This document shows, piece by piece, positions 14,461-37,073 of a stretch of DNA of 64,000 nucleotides. A program made the translations under genes and the position numbers. Within the stretch, counting starts at the first letter, position 1; each line of letters starts with the position of its first letter. The notes under the pieces are model-generated. The model was given only the letters and a program-made list of their open reading frames with translations. It did no database searches and had not been told where the DNA came from. The DNA is from Streptomyces sp. NRRL F-6676 (GTDB lineage: Bacteria > Actinomycetota > Actinomycetes > Streptomycetales > Streptomycetaceae), in contig NZ_JOHS01000015.1 in assembly GCF_000725625.1 (NCBI RefSeq), forward strand, positions 62,001-126,000. The letters run 5' to 3'.

Positions 14461-14715
14461 CGTGGCCCCCTGACGGTCGCTGCGGCTGGGTCGTGAAGCT
14501 CAACGACCCGACATGGATTTCGAACACCTGTGTTTCAGTCGAGCTGGGAACCCCGGAATTGAGCGCGCGGCGGAGGCTGCGGGATGCACCGACCCTTGGG
14601 GTCTACGGGTGCAGATGCTTCGTGCAGTTGGCCGAAACGCCGAGGCTCGCATCGGGGCCCGTACGTCGAGAGGTCCGACAGGACAGCGGATGTTCGGCCG
14701 GCCCACCCGGCGGGG

Positions 14716-15555
14716 TCACATGCGGGTGATGTCGAGGGTGACAATGACCGGGAGGTGATCGCTCAGCTGCTGGGTGACGGTGTTGTCGAGTACCTCGTAG
14801 GAGTGCAGCGCGGGGGCGAGCGTGGGGGAGAGCAGGACATGGTCGGCTCGGTGGTCCCACTTCTGCTCCGGACACAGGTGGCCCGCGGTGCGTGGGATGG
14901 GCTGGTCGAGGTAGACGGGCGGGTCGACGAAGCCGGCGTGCATGAGCGCGCGGATCGCCCGGCGGTCTGTGCCGCCGTATGAGCCGTCGGGCAGCATGAG
15001 GCGGTGCCCGGAGTGCTGGTGCGCCGGGATCAGATCCCAGTCCTCCGGCTCTTCGTCGTCGGCGCCGGGGGTGTTGAGATCTCCGGCCAGCAGGGTGCGT
15101 GCGCCGGCGTGCTCGGTCAGCCACTGGACTTCTGCCAGCCGGTCCTGAGGGCTGAACGGGTCGAGGTGGGTGTGAAGGAGCAGGACCGGCTCCCGGACCC
15201 CGGTGATGCGCAACCGGGCTCGCAGGACGGTGTGGTGGAAGTTGCCGCATGCACCGTCGGAGGAGAACCCCAGACACTGCACCCGCGGCCACCGGTAGTA
15301 CGTGACGAGGTGGCATCCGTGACTGCGCGACCGTGCGAGCAGCGGCTGCATCCCCAGCCGTTCCGCGGTTGCGTACACGCGTTCGGAGTCCTTCTGGTCC
15401 CAGTGCTTGGCCTCCTGGAGGTTCAGCACGTCCAGGTTCAGGCCGCCCAGCAGGCCGACCTGGTCCTCCCAGCGCTCCTGGCCGCCGTTGAGAAGGTTGT
15501 AGCTGCCCACACGCAGCTGCCGGTCCGCCGGCAAGAGGAGTGGCGAGTCAGTCAT
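14716..15555 (-). CDS. Endonuclease/exonuclease/phosphatase (EEP) family protein
   Basis: The 279-residue protein has the EEP motifs: SYNLLNGG at the N-terminus, NLQEAKHW (metal-binding Glu), LLLHTHLDP, AGDLNTPG and the C-terminal RADHVLL with SDHLPVIV (catalytic Asp-His). Members cleave phosphodiester or phosphomonoester bonds in nucleic acids, lipids or small molecules. No signal peptide is seen. It sits next to an AlkC-type glycosylase, so an abasic-site or repair nuclease role is possible. It also resembles in type the two EEP proteins of the 45.9-50.9 kb operon. The 255 bp separating it from the ABC transporter and the 223 bp before it hold no convincing gene. Confidence 0.82.
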   Translation of the reverse strand: MTDSPLLLPADRQLRVGSYNLLNGGQERWEDQVGLLGGLNLDVLNLQEAKHWDQKDSERVYATAERLGMQPLLARSRSHGCHLVTYYRWPRVQCLGFSSDGACGNFHHTVLRARLRITGVREPVLLLHTHLDPFSPQDRLAEVQWLTEHAGARTLLAGDLNTPGADDEEPEDWDLIPAHQHSGHRLMLPDGSYGGTDRRAIRALMHAGFVDPPVYLDQPIPRTAGHLCPEQKWDHRADHVLLSPTLAPALHSYEVLDNTVTQQLSDHLPVIVTLDITRM

Positions 15556-15778
15556 ACGGCTCGTATCTCACTTTCGCGTAGTTGGATCATGCAGACGCCT
15601 TCCAGGGCCGGCGAACGCAGGCGAGGGGCGCCGGGTAGTTAGGCCGGCTAGTTCTTCGCCATCCGCGTTCTTGCCGGGCGTGCGGTCGTCGTGCGCGCAT
15701 GGCTGGGGTGGCAGCGGCGCGGAGGGCGCTGCCTTGAGCAGGGAGGGTCTGGGTCGGCCGGGCCGGGGAGGGGAGTGG

Positions 15779-16906
15779 TCAGGGAGTGAGGACGGTGAAG
15801 GCGGCCGCGGGGAATCGGCGCCCGTTGACCTGGAGGGCGATCGAGTAGGCGCCGGGTGTCAGCTTCGCGGTGGCCGTCGACCGCAGCACATGGTCCTTCG
15901 TGAGCTGGAGTTCGCTGTGGGGCTCAGCGGCGGCACGCAGCAGGAAGTACACCTTCTCTCGCGGCTTCCCGGTCGGTGTCGTTGACGAGATCACGAACAT
16001 CACGTGCACGGGGGCGGCCGCCGTGGTGGTCAGCGTGGCGGAGAAGCTGAGCGTGTCGCCGTCGGCGAGCTCGGTGCGCTCCAGAGTGAGGGGCGACAGG
16101 TCGATCGGTGCGTCGTGGGCGTAGCCGAGGAAGGCGTACGCAGCCGGCCAGCCCTTCTTCAGCCTGCTCCGCAGGGCCTGCCGGGCGATGAAGGCGAAGT
16201 GCTTGTCGGCAGTGCGACCGGAGTCTTTCCAGCGCTGAAGGGTGGCAAGCACCAGGTCCGGCTGCGTATCGGACAGGTCGTGGAGGTGGTTGGCGACCGA
16301 CGTGCGGACGTAGGTGCTGGAGTCGCTGTAGAGCTGTTCGAGTACGGGCAGTGCCGCGTCAGCCGGCAGGGAGATGCGCGGGGCGCAGGGCAGCAGCGGA
16401 CGGGTGGCTTCGCTTGCGAGCCGGCGGGTCCGGTAGTCCTCGTCGCGGGCCCAGGCGTCGACCGCCTTCATCGTCTCCTCGGGAAAGTCGTTGAGGAAGT
16501 GCCGCGCGGCGACCTCTGCCGAGAAGTACCGGGTGAGGCGCGCGAGAGCGGCCAGGGCCTGGTCCAGGTACTCGCCGGTGCGAAGGTAGCGCGCCACGAA
16601 ATGGGAGTGGGGCGCGTAGGTGTGCAGGCCGAAGTCGTTCGGCACGCCGGCCGCTTCCGGGGTCGGCGGCAGAGAGCGCAGCAGCACGTCGAGGGCCTGG
16701 GAGCCGGTGACCGGAAGGTAGGTGTGCAGGCCCTCGCTGGTCCGGGCGATCCGGGCGCCCAGCTCGAGCCGGGGAATGTCCGCCATCACCGACGTCACGA
16801 ACGCGTCGGCGTCGAACTCGGGGCACACGGCGTGGACTTCACGGCCGATGCGGGCGATGCGCTCGGCGCTGATAGCAGTCTCTTTCAGGGGAACCTTCGC
16901 GGTCAT
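15779..16906 (-). CDS. alkC: AlkC-type DNA alkylation repair glycosylase
   Basis: The 375-residue protein shows the AlkC signature: CPEFDADAFV, GLHTYLP, ARYLRTGEYLD, LASEATRPLLPCAPR and SSTYVRTSVANHLHDL. It is a HEAT-like repeat array; AlkC-type enzymes remove N3-methyladenine and N3-methylcytosine without base flipping. The last 100 or so residues form a beta-rich Ig-like domain (SFSATLTTTAAAPVHVMFV to the end), as described for a subset of AlkC proteins. The ATG at 16906 has AGGG seven bases upstream; a GTG two codons earlier is the alternative. Stand-alone alkylation glycosylases inside biosynthetic loci often give self-resistance to DNA-alkylating products. That role here is inference but would match the oxidative chemistry encoded nearby. 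Confidence 0.82.
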   Translation of the reverse strand: MTAKVPLKETAISAERIARIGREVHAVCPEFDADAFVTSVMADIPRLELGARIARTSEGLHTYLPVTGSQALDVLLRSLPPTPEAAGVPNDFGLHTYAPHSHFVARYLRTGEYLDQALAALARLTRYFSAEVAARHFLNDFPEETMKAVDAWARDEDYRTRRLASEATRPLLPCAPRISLPADAALPVLEQLYSDSSTYVRTSVANHLHDLSDTQPDLVLATLQRWKDSGRTADKHFAFIARQALRSRLKKGWPAAYAFLGYAHDAPIDLSPLTLERTELADGDTLSFSATLTTTAAAPVHVMFVISSTTPTGKPREKVYFLLRAAAEPHSELQLTKDHVLRSTATAKLTPGAYSIALQVNGRRFPAAAFTVLTP

Positions 16907-16988
16907 GGGCACACCCTAGGGCCGGCTACGGGGGCAACCTCGTGTTCTCGCCGCAGGTCATCCGGCGGTATGAACCCGAGGGCTTTCG

Positions 16989-17831
16989 CTATCGGACGGC
17001 GGCGCGGTACAGCAGCCGGCGGTGGCGGGAGCTGTCGCAGGGGGAGGCGGTGTGGAGGGTGGCGAGGTTGTCCCACACGACCAGGTCGCCGTGCTTCCAA
17101 CGGTGGCTGTAGACGTAGGGCGCGCTCGTCGTGTGCTCCAGCAGTTCCTCCAGAAGCGCGCGGCTCTCCTGCTCGGCGAGCGTGGTAATGCCGCTGATCA
17201 CCATGGAGCCGAGCAGCAGGGAGCGGGCGCCGGTTACGGGGTGGGTCAGGACGAGCGGGTGTACGACCTCCGGGCTCGCGGCCAGGCTCCCGGCCGCGAT
17301 CGACGACTGACCTCCGCTGGCCTGGCTCTGGAGCTCGCCGAGCTGCTCGATGGAGTGCACTGCGCGCATCCCCTCGATCCGCTGTTGCACCGCCGGGGGG
17401 AGGCCGGCGTAGGCGCGGGTCGCGTCGGCGAAGCGGGTCTCGCCGCCGCGTTGAGGGGTGATGACGGAGTAGAGCATCGTCGCCGAGGTGAGCTGGGGCT
17501 TGAAGCTGTTGTCGGCGTGCCACTCCTCCTCGTTGTCCCCGTCGTAGACGCCGATGTGCTTGCCGTCCTCGACGATGTTGCTGATGACGGTCAGGCCCGG
17601 GAAGCCCCCGACTGCGTACCGGCGGTCGACGCTGGTGTCCACCGTCCCGAAACAGGAGGCGACGGTCAGCAGGTCGGCGTGGGTCAGGTGCTGGCCGGGC
17701 ACGATCAGCAGCCGGTGCTGATGCAGGGCCGCTGCCAGCTGGGGCGCGAGGCTCTCGGCATGGATGGCGAGGTTGGCGTCGACGATGGCGCCGAAGCCGT
17801 TCTCGTCGAGCGGGCGCAGCGACAGGTCCAT
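16989..17831 (-). CDS. Fe(II)/2-oxoglutarate oxygenase, TauD/TfdA type
   Basis: The 280-residue protein starts at an ATG preceded by GGAG. The iron triad is visible: His and Asp in EEWHADNSF, and the distal His in WKHGDLVVWDNLATLHTAS. The arginine that binds 2-oxoglutarate is probably in SSRHRRLLYRAAVR at the C-terminus. Such enzymes hydroxylate, desaturate or halogenate small molecules or carrier-bound amino acids. The HxD Asp is intact, which argues for hydroxylation rather than halogenation. It lies 31 bp downstream of the LysRS-like gene and is probably co-transcribed with it. Confidence 0.9.
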   Translation of the reverse strand: MDLSLRPLDENGFGAIVDANLAIHAESLAPQLAAALHQHRLLIVPGQHLTHADLLTVASCFGTVDTSVDRRYAVGGFPGLTVISNIVEDGKHIGVYDGDNEEEWHADNSFKPQLTSATMLYSVITPQRGGETRFADATRAYAGLPPAVQQRIEGMRAVHSIEQLGELQSQASGGQSSIAAGSLAASPEVVHPLVLTHPVTGARSLLLGSMVISGITTLAEQESRALLEELLEHTTSAPYVYSHRWKHGDLVVWDNLATLHTASPCDSSRHRRLLYRAAVR

Positions 17832-17862: not shown

Positions 17863-18741
17863 TCAGAACTGGAGCGAGGGCTGGAAGACGCTGATGTCCT
17901 TGACGCCGGAGGCGGCCATGCACAGCCGCTCGATGCCGATACCGAGTCCGACGCTGGTGGCCGGCACACGTCCCGAGTCGATCGCCTCCCTGGCCAGGGC
18001 CTGCTCGTCGTCGTACAGGTCCACCGCGCGGGCCCGGTCGGCGAACGCGGCTCCGTCGGGCTCGTCCTCGTAGCCGTGGACGACCTCTATGCCGTCGACC
18101 AGGACCTCGAAGCGGTTGAGGACGGCCGTCGTTCCGGGTGCCAGTCGGGCGCACGGCTCGTCCCCGCCGACCGGGTACTCGGTCAGGAACAGCGCAGCGC
18201 CGTTGCTCTGGACCTCCACCTCGCGTTCCACGTACTGCCCGAGCACTGTCTTGAACGGCACGTCCGCGCTCATGCCCAGGTGGGCGGCCATTTGGGCGGG
18301 CAGGTCCCCGAGGGGCTCGCGGCGCAGGTCGATGCCGAACTGGTCGCGGACGTGGCCGGCGACGGACACGCGCTGCAGGGCGTACGGGAGGTGCGGGCCG
18401 ATCAGCCTCTCGGCGAGCGTCAGGAGGAAGTCGAAGTCCTCACCGGCAGCGTAGAGGTCGAGCATCTGGAACTCGGGCGCGTGCAGTTCGTCGGGCTTCT
18501 CGGGCCGGAAGCACGCACCGATCTCGAAGATGCGCCGGTGGTGCTCCAGGTTCACGCGCAGGGCCGGGCCGATCATCGCCCGCAGGAACCGTCCGCCGTC
18601 GTGGTCCACCGGCAGACGGCGCCCCGGACCGAGGTCGGCTCTGCGCATGGTCGGGGTGGTCACCTCGACGAAGGCCTCGGCGCGGAGGGTGTCCCGCAGG
18701 CTGAACAGCAGGTCGGACCTCATGACGACTGGGTTGAGCAC
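17863..18741 (-). CDS. LysRS/EpmA-like class II aminoacyl-adenylate enzyme
   Basis: The 292-residue protein starts at a GTG with TGAGGAG upstream. It contains the class II synthetase catalytic core only: motif 2-like FEIGACFRPEKPDELHAPEFQ and motif 3-like GLGIGIERLCM. No anticodon-binding domain precedes it, unlike full LysRS (about 500 residues). It therefore resembles EpmA/PoxA, which activates a lysine-type amino acid and attaches it to a protein lysine side chain. Here the divergent gene encodes a Lys-containing repeat protein, so aminoacylation of that peptide or of a small molecule is an attractive but unproven role. It is the first gene of the minus arm. Confidence 0.85.
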   Translation of the reverse strand: MLNPVVMRSDLLFSLRDTLRAEAFVEVTTPTMRRADLGPGRRLPVDHDGGRFLRAMIGPALRVNLEHHRRIFEIGACFRPEKPDELHAPEFQMLDLYAAGEDFDFLLTLAERLIGPHLPYALQRVSVAGHVRDQFGIDLRREPLGDLPAQMAAHLGMSADVPFKTVLGQYVEREVEVQSNGAALFLTEYPVGGDEPCARLAPGTTAVLNRFEVLVDGIEVVHGYEDEPDGAAFADRARAVDLYDDEQALAREAIDSGRVPATSVGLGIGIERLCMAASGVKDISVFQPSLQF

Positions 18742-18955
18742 GGGTACTCCTCAAGGCCGGTGTTTTCGGGCGGAGTTCGCGGGAAGCCGGGCCCCACAGC
18801 GAGCTGTCGTTCGGGTCCTCGGCGGGGCCACAAAGTAGCCGCGCCCGCACGAGCAGCAGAAGCCCTCCCGCCTGCCCTCCCGCGTCCAACGGGCCCAAAA
18901 AGAGGCCCGTCCAGGGACAGAGTTCAGTGTTCTCGCAGGTCAACCTGGGTGTGCG

Positions 18956-19010
18956 CGCAACGGTGACGCAACGGTCCCGTGCAACCGACGCAACGGCCAG
19001 AGCCGTTGCG
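18956..19010 (+). promoter_or_regulatory. Operator array: phased CGCAACGG boxes plus palindrome
   Basis: CGCAACGG occurs exactly at 18956, 18967 and 18989, so the boxes are spaced 11 and 22 bp apart on one face of the helix. A degenerate GCAAC box sits at 18981. The last box forms a perfect inverted repeat with 19002-19010 (nine-base arms, four-base loop). Direct repeats at 11-bp spacing upstream of a -10 element are the hallmark of SARP-type activator sites in Streptomyces pathways, whereas the palindrome could serve a dimeric regulator. No regulator gene for this locus was recognised in the window. Confidence 0.5.
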
Positions 19011-19071
19011 ACCCTCCTCGGTCGAGTCCTAGCGTGACTGGCCAAGCGCCCGGCGTGACCGCCACGCAGCG

Positions 19072-19091
19072 CTCCTCCACAGGTGGAGGAG
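19072..19091 (+). promoter_or_regulatory. Perfect inverted repeat in the peptide-gene leader
   Basis: CTCCTCCAC at 19072-19080 pairs perfectly with GTGGAGGAG at 19083-19091 across two bases. It lies about 40 bp after the possible -10 element and 150 bp before the peptide start. It could be a repressor operator or part of a leader RNA structure; the two-base gap is too short for a normal RNA loop without fraying the top pairs. Confidence 0.4.
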
Positions 19092-19243
19092 ACGTGCTCC
19101 GGCGCGACCCCTCCACTGGCGTGCGCCCACACCACGGCGTGCCGAGCCGACGGTTCAGCACCTCACCCGACCGGCGGCCCGGCAGTTCCATAACCCGATC
19201 ACCCGGACTCGCGGATCACCCGCGACCGAGCAGGGAGAACTCG

Positions 19244-19522
19244 ATGACCGCTTCCGCTGGAATGACCCCGGACACCGGCCTGAAGGCCGGCATGCGGCCG
19301 GACGCCGCGGACATGAAGCTGGGGATGCGCCCCGACGCCGCCGTGCTGAAGGCCGGCATGCGGCCGGACGCCGCGGACATGAAGCTGGGGATGCGCCCCG
19401 ACGCCGCCGCGCTGAAGGCCGGCATGCGGCCGGACGCCGCGGACATGAAGCTCGGGATGCGCCCCGACGCCGCCGCGCTGAAGGCCGGCATGCGGCCGGA
19501 CAGCGCCCTCGTCGCCGCCTGA
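19244..19522 (+). CDS. GMRPD-repeat protein, candidate multi-core RiPP precursor
   Basis: The 92-residue protein has an ATG with AGGGAGAA upstream. After a short N-terminus (MTASAGMTPDTG) it is built almost wholly of 11-residue repeats alternating GMRPDAADMKL and GMRPDAA(V/A)LKA, ending GMRPDSALVAA. GMRPD occurs seven times, preceded by one GMTPD variant. There are seven Arg, seven Lys and no Cys, Trp or Tyr, so lanthionine or aromatic cross-link chemistry is excluded. It is the first gene of the plus arm and directly precedes oxidative and guanidine-type enzymes, which is how a precursor or scaffold peptide would be placed. I do not recognise the family. Alternatives are a structural or carrier protein. 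That it is the pathway substrate is inference. Confidence 0.8.
   Translation: MTASAGMTPDTGLKAGMRPDAADMKLGMRPDAAVLKAGMRPDAADMKLGMRPDAAALKAGMRPDAADMKLGMRPDAAALKAGMRPDSALVAA
19280..19502 (+). repeat. Tandem 66-bp coding repeats of the GMRPD protein
   Basis: Three 66-bp units begin at 19280, 19346 and 19412, with a partial fourth at 19478. Units differ at only a few bases (for example GTG versus GCG at the last codon, and CTGGGG versus CTCGGG in unit three). Each unit encodes two 11-residue repeats. Such high DNA identity implies recent amplification and suggests that copy number changes easily by slippage or recombination. Confidence 0.9.
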
Positions 19523-19549
19523 TGCGCGGCTGATCCACCCCTTCGTCGT

Positions 19550-19615
19550 GCTCCGGCGCGCCTGCCCAACGGCAGGTTGCCCGTGCTGCCTGCCCCTCGG
19601 GGGGCGTGCCGGAGC
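19550..19615 (+). terminator. Branched hairpin after the repeat-peptide gene, possible partial terminator
   Basis: An outer stem GCTCCGGC (19550-19557) pairs with GCCGGAGC (19608-19615). Inside, CCTGCC (19561-19566) pairs with GGCAGG (19571-19576). There is no U-tract. It lies in the 134-bp gap between the peptide and desaturase genes. Structures in this position often let a precursor peptide be made in excess over its enzymes, by partial termination or by mRNA stabilisation. Confidence 0.5.
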
Positions 19616-19656
19616 CCGGCCTCCTTTCATCCGCACCACGTCGACTGGAGAACCTG

Positions 19657-20703
19657 ATGGGCAGCCCCGCCGCCGGCAGGACCCGCAACGGCACCGGAGC
19701 CTCCGGCCCTGTGCGCAAGGCCCTCGGGCAGCAGCTCATCGCCGACCTGGAGAAGCTCTGCGGGCGCCCGACCATCGGCCTGTGGGACGTCGCCTGGGAC
19801 CTCATGGGGATCGCCGCCGCAGCGATAGCGGGCCACCTCATCGGTCACGTCGTCGGCCCTCTGCTCGCCGTCTGCTACATCGGAGTGCGCCAGCGCCATC
19901 TCTCCAACCTCGGCCACGAGTGCGTGCACTCCAAGCTCATGGCCACCCGCCGCGCCAACCGGATCGTCGGCTACCTCCTGACCGGCCTGCTCGGCGAAGG
20001 CTTCGAGCCCTACCGCAGCAGCCACTACGTCCACCACGCCAAGCTCGGCTCGGACGACGACCCGATGTTCCAGTCCTACCGCGCCGGCAACATCCGCGCC
20101 GCGGGCCGAGCGCCCAGCCGCCGCGCCTTCGTCCTACAGGTCATCGTGCGCAACGCCCTGTGGCGGCTGCCGAAGACCGCGGTACAGACCCTGGTCACCC
20201 GCGCGCCGGGGGAGACCTGGCGGGCCCTGGCCACCCGGGCCGTGCTGTGGGCCAGCGTCGTCGCCGCGCTGTGGCCCGTGGGCGGCGTGCTCTACCTTCT
20301 GCTCTACTGGCTGCTCCCCCTCGTCCTGGTACGGCCCGTCGTCACCTGGATCACCGATCTCGGCAACCACGCCGGGCTGATCGAGAACGATGATGTCCTC
20401 CTGCAGACCCGGGGCTGGACCTCCCACTGGCTCACCCGGCACCTGCTCGGCGGCCACCTGGACGACATGTTCCACCCCATCCACCACTGGTGCCCGCAGA
20501 TCCCCTGGCGGCGCCTGCCCGAGGCCCGCGCCCTTGCCGCGCAGCACCTGCCGCGCTTCGGCGAAGTTCCCTGGTGCTCCGGCTACTTCTTCAGGCGCCG
20601 CGCCACCCCGGACCAGCCGTGCGTGATCGAGGACATCATCACCCGGCTCGCCGCTGCCCCCGGCACCGCCTGCACCCCGCCCCGGCACGCCTCAGCCGCC
20701 TGA
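19657..20703 (+). CDS. Membrane fatty-acid-desaturase-like di-iron enzyme
   Basis: The 348-residue membrane protein starts at an ATG with GGAG upstream. The three histidine boxes are clear: HECVHS, HYVHH and HPIHH. Hydrophobic segments lie before box one and between boxes two and three. The family inserts double bonds or hydroxyl groups in lipids and sometimes in amino acid or polyketide substrates. Its place directly after the repeat-peptide gene suggests action on the pathway product or on an attached acyl chain, but no acyltransferase or lipid gene is nearby. Confidence 0.82.
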   Translation: MGSPAAGRTRNGTGASGPVRKALGQQLIADLEKLCGRPTIGLWDVAWDLMGIAAAAIAGHLIGHVVGPLLAVCYIGVRQRHLSNLGHECVHSKLMATRRANRIVGYLLTGLLGEGFEPYRSSHYVHHAKLGSDDDPMFQSYRAGNIRAAGRAPSRRAFVLQVIVRNALWRLPKTAVQTLVTRAPGETWRALATRAVLWASVVAALWPVGGVLYLLLYWLLPLVLVRPVVTWITDLGNHAGLIENDDVLLQTRGWTSHWLTRHLLGGHLDDMFHPIHHWCPQIPWRRLPEARALAAQHLPRFGEVPWCSGYFFRRRATPDQPCVIEDIITRLAAAPGTACTPPRHASAA

Positions 20704-20814
20704 CCTCGTCCTCGCCCGACCTCGAACCCCGTACGGCACCGCCCACCCCGGCCTCGCACCCGCGCGCCGCAGGCGAGGGCGCGCCGTCGCCCGCCGCCGA
20801 GGAGGCGGCCCACC

Positions 20815-21960
20815 ATGCCCCAGCCCGCGCCCACCTCGCCGCCGGCCCTGAACAGCTTCGACGAGTTCACCCGGCTCGACGAAGTCCTCCTCGGCCGCGC
20901 CGAGCACTACGACGCCCACCACACCGACACCTCGTGGCGGCTGTTCTTCTACGACAACGTCGCCCCCGTCCTCGGTCAACACACCAGCCCGTCGGGGGAG
21001 GATCTCCTCCCGATCCCCACCCAGCTGGTCGACGAGCTCAACGAGGACATCGCCGGCCTGGCCGAGGCCCTGACCGGATGCGGGGTGAAGGTCCTGCGGC
21101 CCGCCGCGCCCGGCAAGGACATCGACATCCGCTCCCCGCACTGGGACGCCAGGGCCACCCCGCCGCTCAACGTCCGCGACCAGACCATCATCCTCGGCAA
21201 CACCATCGTGGAGACCGCGCCCCACGTCCGCGCCCGCATCTTCGAGAACGACCTGCTCAAGCCCGCCTTCTACCGCTACTACCAGGACGGGGCGAACTGG
21301 CTGAGCATGCCGCGCCCGGCCCTGGCCCGCGACTCCCTGGACACCGCCTACTTCACCCGCCAGAACCTGGACGTCCGCCGCGCCACCGACGGCGAGAGCG
21401 CCGGCGCGATCGAGGGCCTGGGCCTGGAGATGGTCTTCGACGGCGCGCAGTGCATGCGCCTGGGCCGCGACGTCCTTGTCAACGTCGCCAACCACAACCA
21501 CGAACTCGCCCTGCGCTGGCTAAGGGACAACATCCGCGACCTGCGGTTCCACCGCCTGGACGCCATGGCCGACAACCACATCGACAGCGTCCTGGTCCCG
21601 CTGCGCCCCGGCCTGATGCTGCTGCGCTCCCCGGCCTACCTGAAGTACCTGCCCAAGGCCATGCAGTCCTGGGACGTGATCTACGCCCCCGACACCGACG
21701 ACAGCAACTTCCCGGACTACAGCGACCTCGGCTTCGTCATCCCCATCGGCAGCCGGTACATGGACATCAACCTGCTGTCCATCGACGAGAACACCGTCGT
21801 CGTCAACTCCCTGTACCCCGAGCTGATCGAGGTCCTGGAGCGCCGGGGGTTCACCGTCGTCCCGGTCCGCCACCGCCACCGGCGGCTGTTCGGCGGCGGC
21901 TTCCACTGCTTCACCCTCGACACCGTCCGCCGCGGCGGCCCCGAGGACTACCTCAGCTAA
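20815..21960 (+). CDS. Arginine:glycine amidinotransferase-like enzyme (GATM family)
   Basis: The 381-residue protein starts at an ATG with GAGGAGG upstream. The C-terminal active-site segment GGGFHCFTLDTVRRGG matches the GATM family and supplies the catalytic Cys. The upstream motifs EMVFDGAQCMRLGRD and NHIDSVLVPL supply the Asp and His of the relay. Family members move an amidino group from arginine to an amine, leaving ornithine. In this locus it could build a guanidine on a free or peptidyl amine (the repeats contain Lys), or use peptidyl Arg as donor; both are inference. It sits between the desaturase and cupin genes in the plus-arm operon. Confidence 0.9.
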   Translation: MPQPAPTSPPALNSFDEFTRLDEVLLGRAEHYDAHHTDTSWRLFFYDNVAPVLGQHTSPSGEDLLPIPTQLVDELNEDIAGLAEALTGCGVKVLRPAAPGKDIDIRSPHWDARATPPLNVRDQTIILGNTIVETAPHVRARIFENDLLKPAFYRYYQDGANWLSMPRPALARDSLDTAYFTRQNLDVRRATDGESAGAIEGLGLEMVFDGAQCMRLGRDVLVNVANHNHELALRWLRDNIRDLRFHRLDAMADNHIDSVLVPLRPGLMLLRSPAYLKYLPKAMQSWDVIYAPDTDDSNFPDYSDLGFVIPIGSRYMDINLLSIDENTVVVNSLYPELIEVLERRGFTVVPVRHRHRRLFGGGFHCFTLDTVRRGGPEDYLS

Positions 21961-22010
21961 GCCCGGCGCCCCCGAACACGGCACTCCGCCCCGACGTCAG
22001 GAGATCCTTG

Positions 22011-23333
22011 ATGGACACCGCCTACCCCTGGCCGCCCGACCAGACCTTCTGGACCAGCACCTTCCCCGACCACACCACCGGACGGACCACGCCCTTCCTG
22101 TTCAAGGGCATCATCCCCGCCACGGCGGCCGGCCCCGACGACGTCCTGGCAGGGTTCGAGGCCATCCGCCGGGCCCACGCCGCCGGCACCGACATCAAGG
22201 CGCACGCCCGCGTCTACGTCGGCGAGGACCGCCGCGACGACCTCCTGCCCCAGGCGCTGACCGCCCCGTCCTGGGACGGAGGCGTGGACGCCTTCGTGCC
22301 GTGGATGCAGAACCTCGCCGCCGCCGAGCGGTTCTCCCTGGTCATCAACAACCTGGAGACCGTCAGCCCCGCCCTCGCCGCCGGCCTCGGCACCTTCCTC
22401 AAGACCCTCATCGACGGGTGGGGCCTGCCGCTGGGCGGCGCCGAACAGGTCGCCTTCGCCGGGAACTACGCGGGCACCGCCTTCGGGATCCACGAGGGCT
22501 ACGAGGACGCCTTCCTCGTCCACCTCGGCCCCAACGCCAAGAACTTCTACTGCTGGCCGGCCGAGCAGTACGAGAAGCTCACCGGCGGCAAGGAGCCCAC
22601 CTACGGCGACTACCGCGCGCTGCTGGAGGAAGCCGAGCACTTCCTGCTGGAGCCGGGCGACGCCCTCTTCCTGCCCCGCCGGGTCTTCCACGTCGGCACC
22701 CAGGACACCTTCTCCGTCTCGGTGGCCATGCCGCTGTACACCTACCCGTACGCGCAGATCCTGCAGAGCCGCATCATCCCGGACGTCCTCGCCGACCTGG
22801 CCGGTGACGGGCCCGACGACCCGCTCAACGAGCCCTCCGCGATGGCGGACACGGCCACGGGGCCCGGCGCCGTCGCCGACCGGCTGGCCGGCGTCGGCCG
22901 CGAACTGCTGACCGTCGCCGCCGACCGCGTCCGCGGCGCCGCCGGCCGGCACGCCGAGCAGCGGTGGGCCACGCTGCTGAGCAACGGCGGCTGGGAACTC
23001 GTCGAGGGCGACCTCTCCCGCCAGGAAGCCGCGGACGCCTTCGACCCCGAGCAGGTCACGCCGGGCGCCAGCATCCGCGTGATCGCCCCCTACCAGGTGA
23101 CCACCCTGCTCGACGACGGCGACTCCCACCAGGTCCTGCTGCGCGGCCACCAGCCGGGGATCGCTCTCGACGGCGCGGGCCTGGACCGGGACACCGTCAC
23201 CGCCCTCAACCGCGGCGACACCCTCGTCCTGCCCGACAACGCCGAACTCCTGACGGCCGTCCGCGCCCTGGGAGCCACCGGCGGCCTGCACCTGACCCCC
23301 CGCCCCTCCGACCTCAAGGACGCCGACGCATGA
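22011..23333 (+). CDS. JmjC/cupin-like iron protein with C-terminal extension
   Basis: The 440-residue protein starts at an ATG with AGGAG seven bases upstream. A cupin-like core is visible around residues 120-250. FGIHEGYEDAFLVHLGP and LEPGDALFLPRRVFHVG provide a His-x-Glu and a distal His arranged as in JmjC-type oxygenases, although the usual HxD is HxE here. The last 150 or so residues form a separate winged or beta-rich domain, as in MINA53/NO66-like proteins. Such enzymes hydroxylate proteins, so a peptide substrate is plausible. The stop overlaps the diiron gene start (ATGA). Confidence 0.72.
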   Translation: MDTAYPWPPDQTFWTSTFPDHTTGRTTPFLFKGIIPATAAGPDDVLAGFEAIRRAHAAGTDIKAHARVYVGEDRRDDLLPQALTAPSWDGGVDAFVPWMQNLAAAERFSLVINNLETVSPALAAGLGTFLKTLIDGWGLPLGGAEQVAFAGNYAGTAFGIHEGYEDAFLVHLGPNAKNFYCWPAEQYEKLTGGKEPTYGDYRALLEEAEHFLLEPGDALFLPRRVFHVGTQDTFSVSVAMPLYTYPYAQILQSRIIPDVLADLAGDGPDDPLNEPSAMADTATGPGAVADRLAGVGRELLTVAADRVRGAAGRHAEQRWATLLSNGGWELVEGDLSRQEAADAFDPEQVTPGASIRVIAPYQVTTLLDDGDSHQVLLRGHQPGIALDGAGLDRDTVTALNRGDTLVLPDNAELLTAVRALGATGGLHLTPRPSDLKDADA

Positions 23334-24160
23334 CACCCGACAACAGCCTCGTCCAGGCCTACCTGAAGGCCCACCCCGAGACGCAGAGCGCCGTCAACGG
23401 CACCCTGCTGGGCAACTTCACCTCCGGAACCGCCCTGGTCACCGCGCACCTGGCCCCGCTGGTCGACTGGGTGTACGCGCGGATCGCCGAGAAGGTCGGC
23501 GCCGCCGACCTCAACGAGCGCCAGGCCCGGATGTACATCGAGGAACTCTCGGTGTTCGCCCGCTACAACGCCCAGTACCTCAAGGCGGCCGCCACCGCCG
23601 TGGAGGGCTACTGCCCTGAGCTCGCCCACGAGCTGCGCCGCAACCACCTGGAGGAGGGCGGCGAGCGCGGCAAGGTGCCCGCGCACTACGTCCTCTACAC
23701 CAACGCGCTCCTCTCCGACCTCGGCCTGCTCGTCAACGGCCACGTGCCCGCCCCCGAGACCGAGACGCTGGTCAACCTCCACCAGTGGATGGTCGGCTCG
23801 CACATGCCCAGCCACATCGCCGGCGCCTACTACGCCACCGAGGCCGTGGCGATCGCCGAGACCGAGATCCTGCGCGACATCACCAACCGCTACGGCGAGC
23901 TGACCATCGGCCGCAGCGGCAGCGAGCTCAAGGCCCTGCACTACTACTACGAACTCCACCTCGACGACGAGCACGAGGCCGCCCAGGTCGGCGGCATGAG
24001 CGTCGAGGCCGCCCACATCGAGGGCCTGGCGAGGTTCATCAAGGAGAGTGAAACCTTCCACATCGACCTGCCCCAGGCCCTCGACGGCTGGCTGACGATC
24101 ACGGAGGGGATGACACACTGGTGGGCTCAACTGGCCCACCGCGCCTCGGAGATGAACTGA
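23330..24160 (+). CDS. Heme-oxygenase-like diiron oxidase (HDO)
   Basis: The 276-residue all-helical protein resembles the iron-containing redox family related to CADD, UndA and the central domain of SznF. Candidate iron ligands are in EELSVFARYNAQYLKA, HQWMVGSHMPSH, YYATEAVAIAETE and YELHLDDEHEAAQ. In SznF the HDO domain N-hydroxylates the guanidine of N-methylarginine, after which a cupin domain builds a nitrosourea. Here an HDO and a cupin-like protein are separate but translationally coupled, next to an amidinotransferase. The parallel is suggestive, not proof. The stop shares a base with the GFA start. A decayed copy of its 3' end is found at 41318-41389. Confidence 0.82.
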   Translation: MTPDNSLVQAYLKAHPETQSAVNGTLLGNFTSGTALVTAHLAPLVDWVYARIAEKVGAADLNERQARMYIEELSVFARYNAQYLKAAATAVEGYCPELAHELRRNHLEEGGERGKVPAHYVLYTNALLSDLGLLVNGHVPAPETETLVNLHQWMVGSHMPSHIAGAYYATEAVAIAETEILRDITNRYGELTIGRSGSELKALHYYYELHLDDEHEAAQVGGMSVEAAHIEGLARFIKESETFHIDLPQALDGWLTITEGMTHWWAQLAHRASEMN

Positions 24161-24285
24161 TGAACGCCACCCCCGACATCGTCGCCGCCGCCCAGGAGCG
24201 ATCCGGCGGATGCCTGTGCGGAAAGATCCGCTTCACCGTCAAGGGTGAGGCCGTCTATCCGCACCTGTGCTTCCCTGATGATTGA
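24160..24285 (+). pseudogene. GFA-family gene, 5' fragment cut by element B
   Basis: The fragment reads MNATPDIVAAAQERSGGCLCG and on to AVYPHLC, the start of an Mss4-like GFA-family (glutathione-dependent formaldehyde-activating-like) zinc protein. After the Cys at 24268-24270 the sequence turns into element B, adding FPDD and a stop. The remainder of the gene (SCRHCKKLGGGP onward) is at 42218-42541, in register with this fragment. The intact paralogue at 41391 shows what the full gene looks like. Only the first zinc Cys pair (GGCLCG) remains, so no function is expected. Confidence 0.85.
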
Positions 24286-24315
24286 GTGAGTTCAAGGGAC
24301 TCACAGGGGTGGCAG

Positions 24316-25866
24316 ATGGACGAGTGGTGGTTGGTGTTCGTGCCGGATTCGGAGCGGTGGGGGCCGCTGCCGAAGGAGGGGGTGCTGGGGGTCCGCGACT
24401 TGCCGGCAGCGGTGGCCGCGGTAGGGCTTCAGCCGGGCGATCCGGTCTTTGTACGGCCTGATTTCGTGGTCGATCCCGAGCTGCTGGAATTCGTGCTCTC
24501 CTCGGAATTCCATCCTCTGGAGCGGGAAACTCGGCGGAACTACGCGCTGGATATCCGGCTGTTGCTGACTTGGTTGTGGCGACGCGGGATCCCGTGGCGG
24601 CAGGCGACCGAGAGCGACTTGCGCGCGTATAGGGAATTTCGGTGCGACTCGCCACTCAACCCAAGCCGAATCAGCGGGACGAAGTGGGATCGGGAAGCGT
24701 CGGCTTTCACACGGCTCTACCGGTGGGCGAAGGTCACGCCACTGCCGGTGGACAGCCAGCGCCGGGTGGACCGCGCAGCGGACGCCCGCAGCTCCCGAGT
24801 GTCGTGGCTGACACCGCGGACCTGGGGTCTTTGGCAGGACGTGGGCCTTCGCCGCCTCGGTCCCGACGGGGCACCGGTGCCGGGCTGGGACGGGCGGACC
24901 GAGCTTCGGAATACCTCGTTCGTCGGGTTCACACTCAGCTCGGGACTGCGGAGGCAGGAATCCGGCGCCATCTTGACGTTCGAAGTGCCGGCCCGCCCGC
25001 TGCGCTCGGGCCGCTACTGCCACGGGCAGATGGCCAGAGCGCTGTCACGGTCAAAGCGAGATCGGACCTTCTACGCGTCCGTCGAATCATTGCGCCAGGT
25101 CAGCGCCTACGCGGAGTCGGAGCGGGCCTGGGCCGTCGCACGGGCGCAAGCCCAGGGGCGCTACGAGAAGTTGCCGCTGATGCGGCTGATCACGAAGGTC
25201 ACGACGGGCCTCACCCCAAGGGTCCACTGGGTCAACCGCGACGGCGTCCCAGGGCGACATGACCTGAGCCTGCTCGACTGGCGCGAGCGGCAGTGGCTGT
25301 TCATCGAGGGACCACAGGGCCCGGAGCCGGCGTGGCTGTGGATGACCGAGCAGGGCATGCCCATGCTGCCGGACCGCTGGAACACCGTGTTCCGGCAGGC
25401 CAACCAACGCTGCGAACAGGCTCTGCTGACCCCGGAAGAACGAGAGACGCCCCGGCTGCTCCGGGTCGCGGAGATCCGCGGGAAGGTCCCGTACGCGACA
25501 CCCCACTCCATGCGGCACTCGATGGCGCTCTACATGTTGATCCTGCTCAACGAGCTGATGGACAAGAAGTACGGGCTGACCGCCGCAGACCGGCGCGACT
25601 TCGCCCAGCTCTACGGCGACCCGTGGTGGCTGGTCAAGACCTTGTTGGGGCACAAGGACGTTGAGACGACGAAGGAGCACTACCTTCGTCCGGTCATGCA
25701 TCTGCAGCTGGAGTCGATCCTCGCCTTCGACACCGAGGACGAGCACGGTGAGATGGACGAGACGAAGGACCTGAACGGTCTGTTCGCCCGGCTGGCCCGG
25801 GAGACTTCCGGGATCCAGGACATCGAGCGGCTGGTCGAGGCCCGGCCCGTCGCGGCGGCATCGTGA
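24316..25866 (+). CDS. Tyrosine recombinase, first of the element B trio
   Basis: The 516-residue protein has motifs SSGLRRQESGAILTFEV (first Arg), TPHSMRHSMALYML (box II) and LLGHKDVETTKEHYLRP (His and Tyr nucleophile). The N-terminal region YALDIRLLLTWLWRRGIPW looks like a SAM-like DNA-binding domain. The ATG at 24316 has a GGGGTGG run upstream; a GTG at 24286 would add ten residues but lacks a ribosome site. The gene begins only about 45 bp inside the element end. Its homologue in element A is clearly diverged, so the two elements are relatives rather than recent copies. Confidence 0.9.
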   Translation: MDEWWLVFVPDSERWGPLPKEGVLGVRDLPAAVAAVGLQPGDPVFVRPDFVVDPELLEFVLSSEFHPLERETRRNYALDIRLLLTWLWRRGIPWRQATESDLRAYREFRCDSPLNPSRISGTKWDREASAFTRLYRWAKVTPLPVDSQRRVDRAADARSSRVSWLTPRTWGLWQDVGLRRLGPDGAPVPGWDGRTELRNTSFVGFTLSSGLRRQESGAILTFEVPARPLRSGRYCHGQMARALSRSKRDRTFYASVESLRQVSAYAESERAWAVARAQAQGRYEKLPLMRLITKVTTGLTPRVHWVNRDGVPGRHDLSLLDWRERQWLFIEGPQGPEPAWLWMTEQGMPMLPDRWNTVFRQANQRCEQALLTPEERETPRLLRVAEIRGKVPYATPHSMRHSMALYMLILLNELMDKKYGLTAADRRDFAQLYGDPWWLVKTLLGHKDVETTKEHYLRPVMHLQLESILAFDTEDEHGEMDETKDLNGLFARLARETSGIQDIERLVEARPVAAAS

Positions 25867-27592
25867 GTGGGCGGGGCCGCCGGGCGGTCCTGCCGCCGCC
25901 GGACTTCCAGGCAACCGAGCGGATAGCCGCCGACGGGCTGCAGGTCACCGTGCTGAACAAGGAAGGCTTCAGGCGCGTCTTCGACTTCGCCGCGATCACC
26001 GTGCCCCAGCCGATGCGCTCCTCCCTTGCGCGAGCGTTCGCTGCGCAGTCCATGGGGTGGAACAGCCACGCGAGCGGTGAGTCGTACTGGCGGTCCATTG
26101 AGGTCTTCGCCCGGTTCCTCAAGGCGCAGGGCCACCCGGCCGACGATCTCGGCGACCTCACCTCGGCCACGCTCCGGCTCTGGCGCAACAACCACAAGGA
26201 CACCCCCGGCGGGCGCGAGGCCCTGGCCAAGATCCGTACGTTGCTGAAGCGCGAGCCGCGGCTGGCGCAGGGCCTGGCCGCCGAGGAGCTGGCCCGCCCC
26301 GTTCCGAAGAAGGGCAAGCCCTCCAAGCAGTCCTACCGGCCATCGGAGCGCGACCAGGTGCTGCTGGCCGCCGAACGGCAGTTCCGGGCCGCGCTGCTGC
26401 GGATCCGGGAGAACACCGCGCTGCTCGCCCGCTACCAGTCGGGCGCACTGGACCCGGACAGCCGTGACTGGAGGATCGGGGCGGTCCTCGAGTGCGTCGC
26501 CGCCACGGGCGAACTGCCCGGATACCCGGACAAAGAGGGGAAGGTCTACACCCGAGCCGAAGGGCTGCTGCGCGGAAAGAACCGCGGGAAGACGACGGGT
26601 CGGCTGTTCCTGAGCCGGGCGGAGCTGACGGCCCTGGCCGTGATGATGACGGACCGCTACGGCTGGAATCTGTCGGTCTACGACCGTCTGCACGTGCCCG
26701 TCATCACCCCTTCCGCGGGAGAGACTGCCACGGTCACCTACGAGGTCCTGGTGGAGAAGCGCCGCTCGGGCGAGGGCCGCTGGTTCGACACGGAGAACTA
26801 CACCGACTCCGGCGCGGACTCGCCCGGCCGGCTCATCACCCAGGCCCTGGAAGCCACGCAGCACGGGCGAGCCCTGGCCGCTGCCCTGTCGCCTGGCCAC
26901 GACCTGCTGATGGTCGCGCGCAACCGGCGCCGTACCGACGTGGACTCCAACCTGGACCGGCCCCGGAACGTCGGCCCGCTGTGCTTCGGGGTGTCCAAGG
27001 CCGACGCACGAGTCTGGGCGAGAAGTCACAAGATCGGCTCGCCCTTCCAACGCGCCCGCAGGACCACCATCACCACCACGGGCAAGCCACTGCAGCACAA
27101 ACGCGGCACCCACGAGAGCGTCTACGTCCTGCCCGACGAGAACGTCCAGGAGGCCGCGGTCGACGTGATCGCGGCCGGCGCCGAGGAAGCCCTCGAACAG
27201 GCCCGCGACTACACCTTCAAGGGGCGGCTCACGGACGCGGCCGACGCGACTCACCAGGAGACCGCGACCGCGGGCTGCGCGGACGAGGAGACCAGCCCCT
27301 GGCCGGACCCGAGCGGGGGCTGCGGCGCCGACTTCCTGCTCTGCCTGTCCTGCGAGAACTCCCGGGTCCACACCGGCCACCACCCGCGCCTCGCGCTGCT
27401 GCGCCGCCAGTTGATATCGCTCCGCTCCAGCTGGCCGGAGAAACTCTGGCGAAAGCGATGGGACGAGCACCTCCAGCGACTCGATGACCTGCGGACGAAG
27501 GTCAACGAGAGCACCTGGGACGCCGCTCTGGCCCGCATCACCGACCGCGACCACATGATCGTCGACCACCTGCTCAAGGGAGACCTCGCCCC

Positions 27593-27596
<4 letters not shown>
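25863..27596 (+). CDS. Tyrosine recombinase-like protein, middle of the element B trio
   Basis: The 577-residue protein starts at a GTG overlapping the previous stop (GTGA). Catalytic motifs are weak: ARRTTITTTGKPLQHKRG and THESVYVLPDENVQ resemble box II and the His/Tyr segment, but no clean first Arg is evident. The C-terminus has a Cys-rich tail (GCGADFLLCLSCENSRVHTG), probably zinc-binding, matching the middle protein of element A. It probably acts in complex with the other two recombinases. Confidence 0.8.
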
Positions 27597-30308
<2,712 letters not shown>

Positions 30309-30310
30309 GA

Positions 30311-30339
30311 GGGGCCGCCCGGAGCTTCCGGACGGCCCC
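30311..30339 (-). terminator. Terminator of the arsC-trxB operon
   Basis: GGGGCCGCCCGGA (30311-30323) and TCCGGACGGCCCC (30327-30339) form a 13-base stem with one mismatch and a three-base loop. It is 16 bp past the trxB stop on the minus strand. There is no U-tract, as is usual for Streptomyces terminators. Confidence 0.75.
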
Positions 30340-30354
30340 GCCTGGGAGTGTTGC

Positions 30355-31329
30355 TCAGGCCGGGACAGCAGCGGTTGCAGGCTCGGTTTCGGCCGTGCCG
30401 CGGGCGGCGAGGTAGCGCTCGGCGTCTAGGGCGGCTGCCGCGCCGGTGCCTGCGGCGGTGATGGCCTGGCGGTAGGTGTGGTCGACGACGTCGCCGGCGG
30501 CGAACACCCCGGGCAGGCTTGTCCGCGTCGTCGGGGAGGCCACCTGGATGTAGCCCTCGCCGTCGAGGTCGAGCTGGCCGGTGAACAGCTCGGTGCGCGG
30601 GTCGTGGCCGATGGCGATGAACAGCCCCGTGACATCGAGGTCGCGGGTGGCGCCGGTGAAGACGCCGCGCAGGACGACGCCGCCGAGCATGCCGTTCGTC
30701 TCCTTGATCTCGGCGATCTCGCTGTCGAAAGCGAAGGAGATCTTGTCGTCGGCGAACGCCCGGTCCTGCATGACCTTGGAGGCGCGCAGGGTGGAGCGGC
30801 GGTGGACGACGGTGACGGAGCGGGCGAAGCGGGTGAGGAAGGTGGCTTCTTCCATGGCGGTGTCGCCGCCGCCGACCACGACGATGTCGCGGTCGCGGAA
30901 GAAGAACCCGTCGCAGGTCGCACACCAGGACACCCCGCGACCGGACAGCTCGTCCTCGTGAGGCAGGCCGAGCTTGCGGTAGCCGGAGCCGGTGGCGATG
31001 ATCACCGTCTTCGCACGGTGGACGGTGCCTGCGGAGTCGGTGAGCAGCTTGATGTCGCCGGTGAGGTCCACCTCGACGATGTCGTCGTCGATCATCTCGG
31101 CGCCGAACTTCTCGGCCTGGGCCCGCATGTTGTCCATCAGCACGGGGCCGTCGACGCCCTCGGGGAAGCCGGGGAAGTTCTCGACCTCGGTCGTGGTGGT
31201 CAGCGAGCCGCCGACGAAGATGGAGCTGCCGAACAGCAGGGGCTTCAGCTGGGCGCGGGCGGTGTAGAGGGCGGCGGTGTATCCGGCGGGGCCGGAGCCG
31301 ATGATGACGACCTCGCGTATCTCGCTCAC
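30355..31329 (-). CDS. trxB: Thioredoxin reductase
   Basis: The 324-residue flavoprotein has the FAD motif IIGSGPAGYTAALYTARA, the redox pair CATC (GVSWCATCDGFFF), the NADPH motif VVGGGDTAMEEATFL and the C-terminal FAD motif GVFAAGDVVDHTYRQ. It reduces thioredoxin with NADPH; in this operon it would supply electrons for the arsenate reductase immediately upstream. The GTG start at 31329 overlaps the arsC stop (GTGA), so it is translated with arsC. A further copy presumably exists on the chromosome as the housekeeping enzyme. Confidence 0.93.
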   Translation of the reverse strand: MSEIREVVIIGSGPAGYTAALYTARAQLKPLLFGSSIFVGGSLTTTTEVENFPGFPEGVDGPVLMDNMRAQAEKFGAEMIDDDIVEVDLTGDIKLLTDSAGTVHRAKTVIIATGSGYRKLGLPHEDELSGRGVSWCATCDGFFFRDRDIVVVGGGDTAMEEATFLTRFARSVTVVHRRSTLRASKVMQDRAFADDKISFAFDSEIAEIKETNGMLGGVVLRGVFTGATRDLDVTGLFIAIGHDPRTELFTGQLDLDGEGYIQVASPTTRTSLPGVFAAGDVVDHTYRQAITAAGTGAAAALDAERYLAARGTAETEPATAAVPA

Positions 31330-31748: not shown

Positions 31749-31843
31749 GGTGATCGTTCTCTCTCGTCGCATGGCGGAACCCAGCCGCCAATGACTTCAG
31801 CCCCCGCTGGTATCAGCGAGTGGTGATGTGAGAGTATCAGTGC
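31749..31843 (+). promoter_or_regulatory. arsC/arsR divergent promoter with probable ArsR operator
   Basis: This 95-bp gap drives arsC-trxB leftward and arsR-ACR3 rightward. ATCA (31812-31815) and TGAT (31824-31827) form an interrupted dyad typical of ArsR/SmtB operators, and TATCAG is repeated at 31811 and 31834. The first arsR product is the likely repressor of both directions, relieved by arsenite. Confidence 0.55.
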
Positions 31844-34315: not shown

Positions 34316-34331
34316 GCGCGGGTGGTGCGGC

Positions 34332-34367
34332 CGTCCCCGGCCGCGCGGTGCCGGGCGGCCGGGGACG
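34332..34367 (+). terminator. Strong hairpin between convergent genes
   Basis: CGTCCCCGGCCG (34332-34343) and CGGCCGGGGACG (34356-34367) are perfect 12-base complements with a 12-base loop. The hairpin lies 17 bp after the monooxygenase stop (plus strand) and 6 bp after the metallothionein-like stop (minus strand), so it can end both transcripts. Its position after 34315 also supports 34315 as the original end of the monooxygenase gene. Confidence 0.75.
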
Positions 34368-34372
34368 TGCGG

Positions 34373-34519: not shown

Positions 34520-34561
34520 CGCGCTCACCTCCTTGTTCGCGTTTCGCTTCCGTCGCGAGCG

Positions 34562-37071: not shown

Positions 37072-37073
37072 GC

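Follow-up and report, generated by a model that had tools for sequence, protein, structure and literature searches.

What becomes of a small protein that is built from repeats of GMRPD and encoded among enzymes of oxidative and guanidine chemistry? The question is raised by a locus in Streptomyces sp. NRRL F-6676, within the 64,000-nucleotide stretch of DNA analysed here (the window; positions 62,001 to 126,000 of contig NZ_JOHS01000015.1, assembly GCF_000725625.1). An earlier note on this DNA had proposed that the repeat protein, here called REP, is the multi-core precursor of a ribosomally synthesised and post-translationally modified peptide (RiPP). Following REP and its neighbours through genomes and plasmids, we arrive, at a probability of about 0.55, at a nearly leaderless multi-core RiPP-like mobile cluster, in which modification of Arg, and perhaps of Lys, would yield a reactive, DNA-alkylating peptide product. 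This reading is built on conservation, gene content, the HXG motif of a JmjC protein, its predicted YcfD fold and the relationship of an AlkC-type glycosylase; from these we infer which reactions the enzymes catalyse and in what order, which residue they target and how the product acts.

The repeat peptide and its companion JmjC gene

The earlier description of the peptide and its surroundings holds up. REP has 92 residues and contains the GMRPD unit seven times, plus one degenerate unit, GMTPD; every unit contains one Arg and one Lys, and Cys, Tyr and Trp are all absent from the protein. Its gene, with GGGAG immediately 5' of the ATG, is the first of an operon on the plus strand that continues with a membrane di-iron enzyme, an amidinotransferase, the JmjC protein and a haem-oxygenase-like diiron oxidase (HDO); a TauD-family oxygenase and an enzyme resembling lysyl-tRNA synthetase (LysRS) and EpmA are encoded on the minus strand. 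The repeat array in the DNA (19280-19501, Tandem Repeats Finder) is far above chance expectation. It can be read with a period of 33 bp (6.7 copies, 71% matches) or of 66 bp (3.4 copies, 98% matches), and the better fit of the longer period suggests that the array expanded recently by pairs of units.

We counted units in 25 REP-bearing loci (loci, genomes and proteins carry the prefixes L, G and P), accepting short stretches in which three or all four of K, G, R and P stand at their positions; 163 were found, and after nine in-frame upstream of start codons had been dropped, 154 units remained. G, R and P are present in all 154 and K in 151, being replaced by Q twice (L032) and by T once (L052). 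The residue preceding R is M in 140 units, V in 10 and Q, E, I or R in one each; the residue following P is D in 142 and G in 12. The consensus unit is K-x-G-[M/V]-R-P-[D/G]. Among 56 units from 16 database proteins, from which we excluded P0134, an unrelated 185-residue match, K occurs in 56, G in 55, R in 54 and P in 56. Units follow one another at 9-12 residues (11 in 103 of 128 cases). Their number, which the earlier note had proposed to compare, ranges from 4 to 10 per locus, and the shortest database proteins have 2 or 3. The stretch before the first unit is short, with 5 residues in L091, 9 in Nostoc commune and at most 24, in L031. The N. commune peptide is 44 residues long and repeats LKxGVRPDA four times; REP in Nostoc retains the K-x-G-V-R-P-D unit and little else. 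A conserved unit in varying number is the pattern of a multi-site substrate with Arg-Pro at its centre. Some peptides carry variant repeats: GVRPD and GMRPG/GQRPG in P0133, P0135 and P0136, and GV, GQ and GE preceding RPD in a peptide of L104 (5306-5455). These variants possibly correspond to different products.

REP accompanies the JmjC gene of the HXG type in 24 of 25 loci, nine of them found via REP, one being the window and 15 found via JmjC. Absence of the repeat protein from otherwise conserved loci was what the earlier note had named as evidence against a precursor; REP is present in 14 of the 15 loci found through JmjC rather than through REP, so this objection is not borne out. The sole locus without it is plasmid L093, in which no other cluster gene is left. 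The 25 are not independent events, since they include groups of closely related loci (the window with L036 and L101; L102 with L109). A genetically encoded precursor conserved with tailoring enzymes is one mark of a RiPP and is found here, and the idea of a RiPP-like multi-core substrate gains from the co-occurrence, the variable unit number and the near-invariant Arg-Pro, all read from sequence. The cluster is a probable new RiPP class.

A REP search of 295 Streptomyces genomes matched 30 at E up to 1e-3, and neighbourhoods were obtained for 20 of these, the remaining 10 being weaker matches without a returned locus. We take five genomes as real (the window's own, G086, G088, G138 and G175), because LysRS-like, GntB and GATM genes adjoin REP there; the other 15 loci (L014-L028) have no such neighbour and were rejected as chance repeats. 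The JmjC homologue P0078 matched the same five genomes and no others among 392 Streptomyces genomes, and only the window and G088 among 296 genomes of the phylum. With the JmjC protein of the window as query, 394 genomes of the class gave matches to the window, G088, a full cluster in another family (G348) and two distant proteins (28-31% identity) with no REP nearby. A DNA pattern for two adjacent units returned 11 stretches in 10 named records; nine of these have cluster genes, eight in Streptomyces and one in Amycolatopsis saalfeldensis, and the match in a metagenome-assembled genome of Edaphobacter (L039), where no cluster gene is present, was dismissed as chance.

In a plasmid collection P0078 matched 24 records, 14 of them at a coverage of at least 80%; we inspected all 14 and one of the other ten, which are partial matches; that one has no REP. 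REP is present in 13 of the 14, annotated merely as a hypothetical protein. It lies between the LysRS-like gene and the desaturase gene in 11 Streptomyces plasmids and directly precedes the JmjC gene in two Nostoc plasmids. The hosts thus comprise Streptomyces chromosomes and plasmids, another actinobacterial family and two Nostoc plasmids, and the gene set common to actinobacteria and both Nostoc plasmids is REP, JmjC, HDO and GFA, a family named glutathione-dependent formaldehyde-activating enzyme. Of the co-occurrence that the earlier note had proposed to look for, the part concerning HDO and JmjC extends across actinobacteria and Nostoc; GATM was not recognised in the 21 kb seen of N. carneum and is missing in N. 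commune. P0078 found no match in a phage search, four stretches of viral contigs fitted the REP pattern with no relative among them, and seven cluster proteins gave no PADLOC match at 1e-5. We set aside as different in kind L053 and L054, whose JmjC proteins have HXD, and L096, with a distant JmjC protein; none has REP. L096 is a Pantoea ananatis plasmid cluster with a JmjC protein at 28%, a second cupin, an arginase-family protein and no repeat peptide. Two decayed clusters, L084 (G275) and L085 (G166), retain AlkC and TauD remnants and neither REP nor JmjC.

An HXG iron motif and the proposed modification of REP

The predicted structure of the JmjC protein has the YcfD fold, with both the JmjC and the C-terminal domains of the ROX fold, and aligns structurally with YcfD and YcfDRM at 11-13% identity. 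Instead of the HXD...H iron triad of the YcfD/ROX oxygenases, it has H161-E162-G163 with H227 as the second His. HXG is found in all 120 listed of 156 homologues, the Gly constant and X variable, and H161, G163 and H227 are invariant in 24 of 24 aligned sequences. K177, which we take to be a residue of the 2-oxoglutarate (2OG) site, is conserved as well. Iron- and 2OG-dependent (Fe/2OG) halogenases have HX(G/A) in place of HX(D/E). The JmjC protein has this replacement with both His retained, and the loss of the carboxylate ligand in such halogenases is described in PMC10187165. Chlorination of REP by the JmjC protein is plausible. The terms iron, aliphatic, 2-oxoglutarate and non-heme are all absent from the accessible text of PMC12615548, which reviews the halogenation of peptides.

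The HDO label follows from a DUF3865 assignment together with the CADD-like structure 3b5o, which the profile matches at 2.3e-11; BesC is not among the three PDB matches of the profile at E 1. E109, H119, E171, H210, E226 and H229 are invariant in 12 of 12 sequences, and these three His and three Glu could be the metal ligands by our own assignment, members of the HDO superfamily having a haem-oxygenase-like fold with three His and three carboxylates; a structure model with a pLDDT (predicted local distance difference test) of 46 was discarded. A GFA gene stands behind the HDO gene in two phyla, with one gene in between in Nostoc carneum. The family name is no proof of function; the gene order fits fragmentation of a side chain with release of formaldehyde.

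Each of the 4 to 10 units would then be one modification site. We propose that the HXG protein acts first, on the Arg of each unit (Lys being the second choice), probably by chlorination and otherwise by hydroxylation. The HDO would next cleave or N-oxidise the modified side chain, freeing formaldehyde or a similar aldehyde that the GFA-family protein would handle. In actinobacteria the GntB-like protein, GATM, TauD, a protein of the arginine deiminase (ADI)/DDAH family and the LysRS-like ligase may add further tailoring, by guanidine exchange, hydroxylation and attachment of a basic amino acid. Export would fall to the ABC transporter; DNA would be alkylated by the product itself or by a reactive intermediate; and the producer would repair the damage with AlkC (Tag in N. 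carneum) and a protein of the endonuclease/exonuclease/phosphatase (EEP) family.

We favour Arg over Lys as the target, by about three to two. For Arg speak its near-invariance, the YcfD fold and the Arg-related families GntB, GATM and ADI/DDAH; for Lys, its presence in 151 of 154 units and the precedent of BesD and BesC. The guanidine-type enzymes on which the earlier note had relied are indeed there, as a GntB relative and a relative of Arg amidinotransferases (about 1e-30 to human AGAT, with no Pfam match at 0.01), and the ADI/DDAH protein and the YcfD-fold JmjC protein can be added to them.

Lysylation by the LysRS/EpmA-like enzyme, also proposed earlier, finds no support. The class II motif 2 and 3 residues of this protein are intact, but in all 10 of 10 sequences its lysine pocket differs from that of E. 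coli LysRS at four positions: Glu has become D95 and D226, Asn H222 and Phe Y224. The protein likely activates a different basic amino acid. Alternatively, REP would be a scaffold or carrier, on whose Lys or Asp a small molecule is built, or to which the LysRS-like protein ligates an amino acid, before release, the repeats serving to multiply sites. Such a role would suit the altered pocket, the Lys kept in 151 units and a LysRS-like gene present in 21 of 21 REP-bearing actinobacterial loci with its place in view (L038 is cut off there; L029 has it in two frames). We nevertheless consider it doubtful. N. carneum has REP, JmjC, HDO and GFA with no LysRS-like gene in the stretch seen, R and P vary less than K across the 25 loci (though in the database proteins R stands at 54 of 56 and K at 56 of 56), and the JmjC fold belongs to enzymes that oxidise residues of polypeptides.

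DNA glycosylases, proposed self-resistance and competing readings

The evidence for an alkylating product comes from DNA repair genes. The AlkC-type protein resembles 5vi0 over nearly its whole length (residues 9-373), Pfam places it with DNA_alkylation, and it is its genome's only match at E 0.001. AlkC is present in 19 of 20 actinobacterial cluster loci with its place in view, the exception being L029 (G175); this count leaves out L036 and L038 (cut off there), L093 (no cluster left) and L109. An AlkC of some type is found at E 1e-20 in 41 of 295 Streptomyces genomes. The type with 72-74% identity occurs in cluster genomes G086, G088 and G138 and in the decayed G275, where the match is interrupted by internal stops; G166 has a 73% fragment, and all remaining matches are at 32-41%. 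The cluster's AlkC is thus both linked to the cluster and distinct from other AlkC proteins, as expected of a self-resistance gene. In N. carneum an unrelated glycosylase, Tag (3-methyladenine DNA glycosylase I; Pfam 3.2e-76; NCBIfam 214.6 bits, slightly below the cut-off of 232.5), lies within the same gene run. That glycosylases of two unrelated families recur in this biosynthetic setting is the best, though indirect, evidence for an alkylating product, and we regard the cluster product as probably DNA-alkylating. The antiporter beside the nitroreductase may protect from electrophiles.

Several observations pull the other way. G175 has no AlkC match at E 1e-20 in its genome and none beside TauD in L029, and the 41-kb N. 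commune plasmid has no DNA glycosylase by annotation or by Pfam on 10 proteins. The LysRS-like gene of L029 (10646-11522) is spread over two reading frames, with residues 1-209 in one and 211-292 in the other, and is possibly frameshifted. GntB, GATM and the LysRS-like protein were not recognised in the 21 kb seen of N. carneum, and the N. commune locus is without GntB and GATM but has a 33% LysRS-like protein; being missing there, GntB and GATM (and, in N. carneum, the LysRS-like gene) are taken as accessory. Plasmid L092 keeps REP through JmjC with no HDO and no GFA, and L093 carries JmjC alone. The cluster's own GFA gene is interrupted in the window, though a second copy is nearby. No protease, peptidase or RiPP recognition element (RRE) was recognised in the cluster, where no dedicated RRE search was run. 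The Lys of the unit is replaced in L032 and L052. Finally, HXG is insufficient proof of halogenation: the D201G mutant of the JmjC enzyme FIH, whose structure is solved (3d8c), reportedly retains hydroxylase activity. As a separate observation, the possible frameshift in L029 falls in the one cluster genome without AlkC.

The FIH mutant and the two clusters without a glycosylase (N. commune and L029) would be accommodated if the JmjC protein were a plain hydroxylase lacking the carboxylate ligand, the product a hydroxylated, amidino-modified and non-genotoxic peptide, and AlkC a passenger. This too seems rather unlikely to us, as the 120 listed homologues all share the Gly of HXG and differ in X, the cluster AlkC is shared at 72-74% between cluster genomes against 32-41% elsewhere (bar the G166 fragment), and N. 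carneum has Tag.

A less probable route keeps the genotoxin and changes the chemistry, with the HDO hydroxylating the Arg guanidine and the cupin/JmjC protein rearranging it to a DNA-alkylating N-nitroso group, as in streptozotocin. The HDO SznF reportedly contains a cupin domain too and produces an N-nitrosourea that methylates. By family, both AlkC and Tag belong with the 3-methyladenine-type glycosylases, and SznF acts on a guanidine (PMC13108848). Here, however, the JmjC protein has the YcfD fold with a conserved K177 and is not a cupin of the SznF type, no N-methyltransferase was recognised in the window's cluster (some relatives have a SAM-dependent, that is S-adenosylmethionine-dependent, methyltransferase at the far end), and the HXG motif is left unexplained. 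That REP is a binding or regulatory protein, for instance with RPEL-like actin-binding repeats, is very improbable, since the Pfam RPEL match (23.4 bits, marginally above the cut-off of 23) spans at best 12 residues, Nostoc REP conserves the unit and hardly more, and tailoring enzymes constantly accompany it.

Within the preferred reading of an Arg- or Lys-modified RiPP-like product, the halogenase and genotoxin steps are the bold part. In its full form, which we offer as tentative, a JmjC-fold HXG radical halogenase installs chlorine on the Arg or Lys of every GxRP unit, formaldehyde is set free as the HDO then cleaves the side chain, and a DNA-alkylating antibiotic results, against which AlkC or Tag protects its actinobacterial and cyanobacterial producers. 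If this is true, the cluster joins a nearly leaderless repeat precursor, a YcfD-fold oxygenase with a halogenase-type iron site, a peptide-acting HDO and self-resistance by alkylation repair, four features that we have not seen together in the open-access literature searched. It would provide a peptide-level enzyme for aliphatic C-H functionalisation and a handle for genome mining, namely GxRP repeats near DUF3865 and an HXG JmjC gene, in loci that are small and syntenic.

Extent of the cluster and relation to known systems

In intact relatives the left arm holds the ABC transporter, (the EEP-family gene), AlkC, TauD and the LysRS-like gene; in the other direction follow REP, GntB, GATM, JmjC, HDO, GFA, the ADI/DDAH-family gene, a cation:proton antiporter, a nitroreductase and a regulator, which a methyltransferase sometimes precedes. 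The gene set varies by locus. By this comparison the locus first delimited, 18742-24160, is too short: AlkC, the EEP-family gene and the ABC transporter (12526-16912) belong to it, as do the genes at about 42197-47173. The earlier note had caught the core of the system and overlooked the DNA glycosylase, the HXG motif, the GFA gene, the cluster's second half and its occurrence in cyanobacteria.

Table 1. Features of the cluster and of the island inserted into it, in window coordinates.
Feature	Position	Strand	Basis
ABC transporter permease/ATPase, likely exporter	12526-14460	-	Pfam ABC_tran
EEP-family protein	14716-15555	-	Pfam Exo_endo_phos 1.3e-5
AlkC-type DNA glycosylase, proposed self-resistance	15779-16912	-	PDB AlkC 5vi0, E 1.4e-49
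TauD-family Fe/2OG dioxygenase	16989-17831	-	Pfam TauD 4.7e-52
Class II LysRS/EpmA-like ligase core, altered lysine pocket	17863-18741	-	
REP repeat peptide, 92 aa, 7 x GMRPD, proposed multi-core precursor	19244-19522	+	
GntB-like membrane di-iron hydroxylase/desaturase family	19657-20703	+	Pfam FA_desaturase 8.7e-31
Amidinotransferase (GATM/StrB1 family)	20815-21960	+	PDB 1bwd 1.3e-42
JmjC ROX/YcfD-fold Fe/2OG-type protein, HXG motif	22011-23333	+	
HDO-like (DUF3865, CADD-like) candidate diiron oxidase	23330-24160	+	
Left GFA-family piece, cut by insertion	24160-24285	+	
Recombinase trio, left end of island	24286-29734	+	named after counterpart genes annotated in L101
Second, full-length GFA-family copy near island right end	41391-41813	+	tblastn, 70% to L102 GFA
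Right piece of cluster GFA	42197-42538	+	tblastn, 81% to L102 GFA residues 31-144
ADI/DDAH-family protein	42674-43540	+	86% to L102 homologue (Pfam ADI 7e-24)
Cation:proton antiporter (CPA2-like)	43605-44876	+	87% to L102 homologue
Nitroreductase-family protein	44876-45433	+	76% to L102 homologue (Pfam Nitroreductase)
Regulator, cluster end in relatives	45875-47173	-	90% to L102 homologue

Relatives of the ABC transporter stand at the equivalent place in L030-L032 (54-55% identity), and no peptidase domain was found in the cluster's transporter. The EEP-family protein has weak similarity to exonuclease III (TIGR00633, 25.6 bits, cut-off 99); its gene is also in L037 and L101 and, at 25% identity, in L040. 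The L102 antiporter homologue matches Pfam Na_H_Exchanger at 6.3e-51 and TIGR00932 at 130 bits (cut-off 238). In N. carneum, two proteins encoded at L094 12112-16636, a GATase and one of AMP-binding/PP-binding/reductase type, have no counterpart among the actinobacterial clusters seen.

About 35 codons into the window's GFA gene, the reading frame is broken by an inserted island (about 18 kb, at about 24265-42200). This holds the recombinase trio, the first open reading frame (ORF) of which has no Pfam match, a pyridine nucleotide oxidoreductase, ArsR-/MerR-type regulators, a TauE exporter, a GNAT protein, FAD (flavin adenine dinucleotide) enzymes, an MFS transporter and the second GFA copy, and it resembles an arsenic or metal island. 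Three records share an interruption of GFA at one and the same codon (window 24160-24285, L101 10135-10260, L109 10153-10278), and the interrupting elements have a common left end. The plasmids with this interruption are pFRL4 and S. mirabilis pI, the latter with different downstream genes. GFA looks like a recurrent integration site. Upstream of the cluster (4678-10090, minus strand) are three further recombinase-like ORFs, two of which resemble members of the downstream trio at 23% and 26% identity.

The earlier note knew of no class with this set of enzymes, and the open-access literature likewise yielded no recognised description of the cluster or of such a RiPP class. The string GMRPD occurs in open-access papers on subjects unrelated by title, and DUF3865 occurs in one such paper, on Pseudomonas putida design. 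In the excerpts found on glycosylases of biosynthetic gene clusters, AlkC is not named as a resistance gene.

Like known multi-core RiPP precursors, REP consists of near-identical units in tandem, whose number and spacers vary, comes first in its operon, and is accompanied by tailoring enzymes and an exporter. In contrast to them, it has only 5 to 24 residues before the first unit, and no RRE, cyclase or protease was recognised here. The JmjC protein differs from YcfD/ROX, the Arg C3-hydroxylase of uL16, in its HXG motif in place of HXD, its low identity and its setting in a biosynthetic cluster. Guanitoxin biosynthesis shares with the cluster the membrane di-iron family of GntB and an Arg-related chemistry; the window's protein, however, reaches 113 bits against the NCBIfam GntB_guanitoxin cut-off of 380, and the remaining pathway was not recognised at this locus. 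SznF is said to fuse HDO and cupin in one protein, whereas HDO and JmjC are separate genes here, the latter with the YcfD fold. In the Lys 4-chlorinase BesD and the HDO BesC, as here, an Fe/2OG protein without a carboxylate ligand stands next to an HDO. BesC frees formaldehyde, and here a GFA-family gene comes after the HDO gene; BesD acts on free Lys, whereas the JmjC/YcfD-fold protein presumably acts on a peptide, probably at Arg. Lastly, YtkR2 and AlkZ are DNA glycosylases that confer self-resistance in antibiotic clusters (PMC9040887), a role that we propose here for a glycosylase of a different branch, AlkC.

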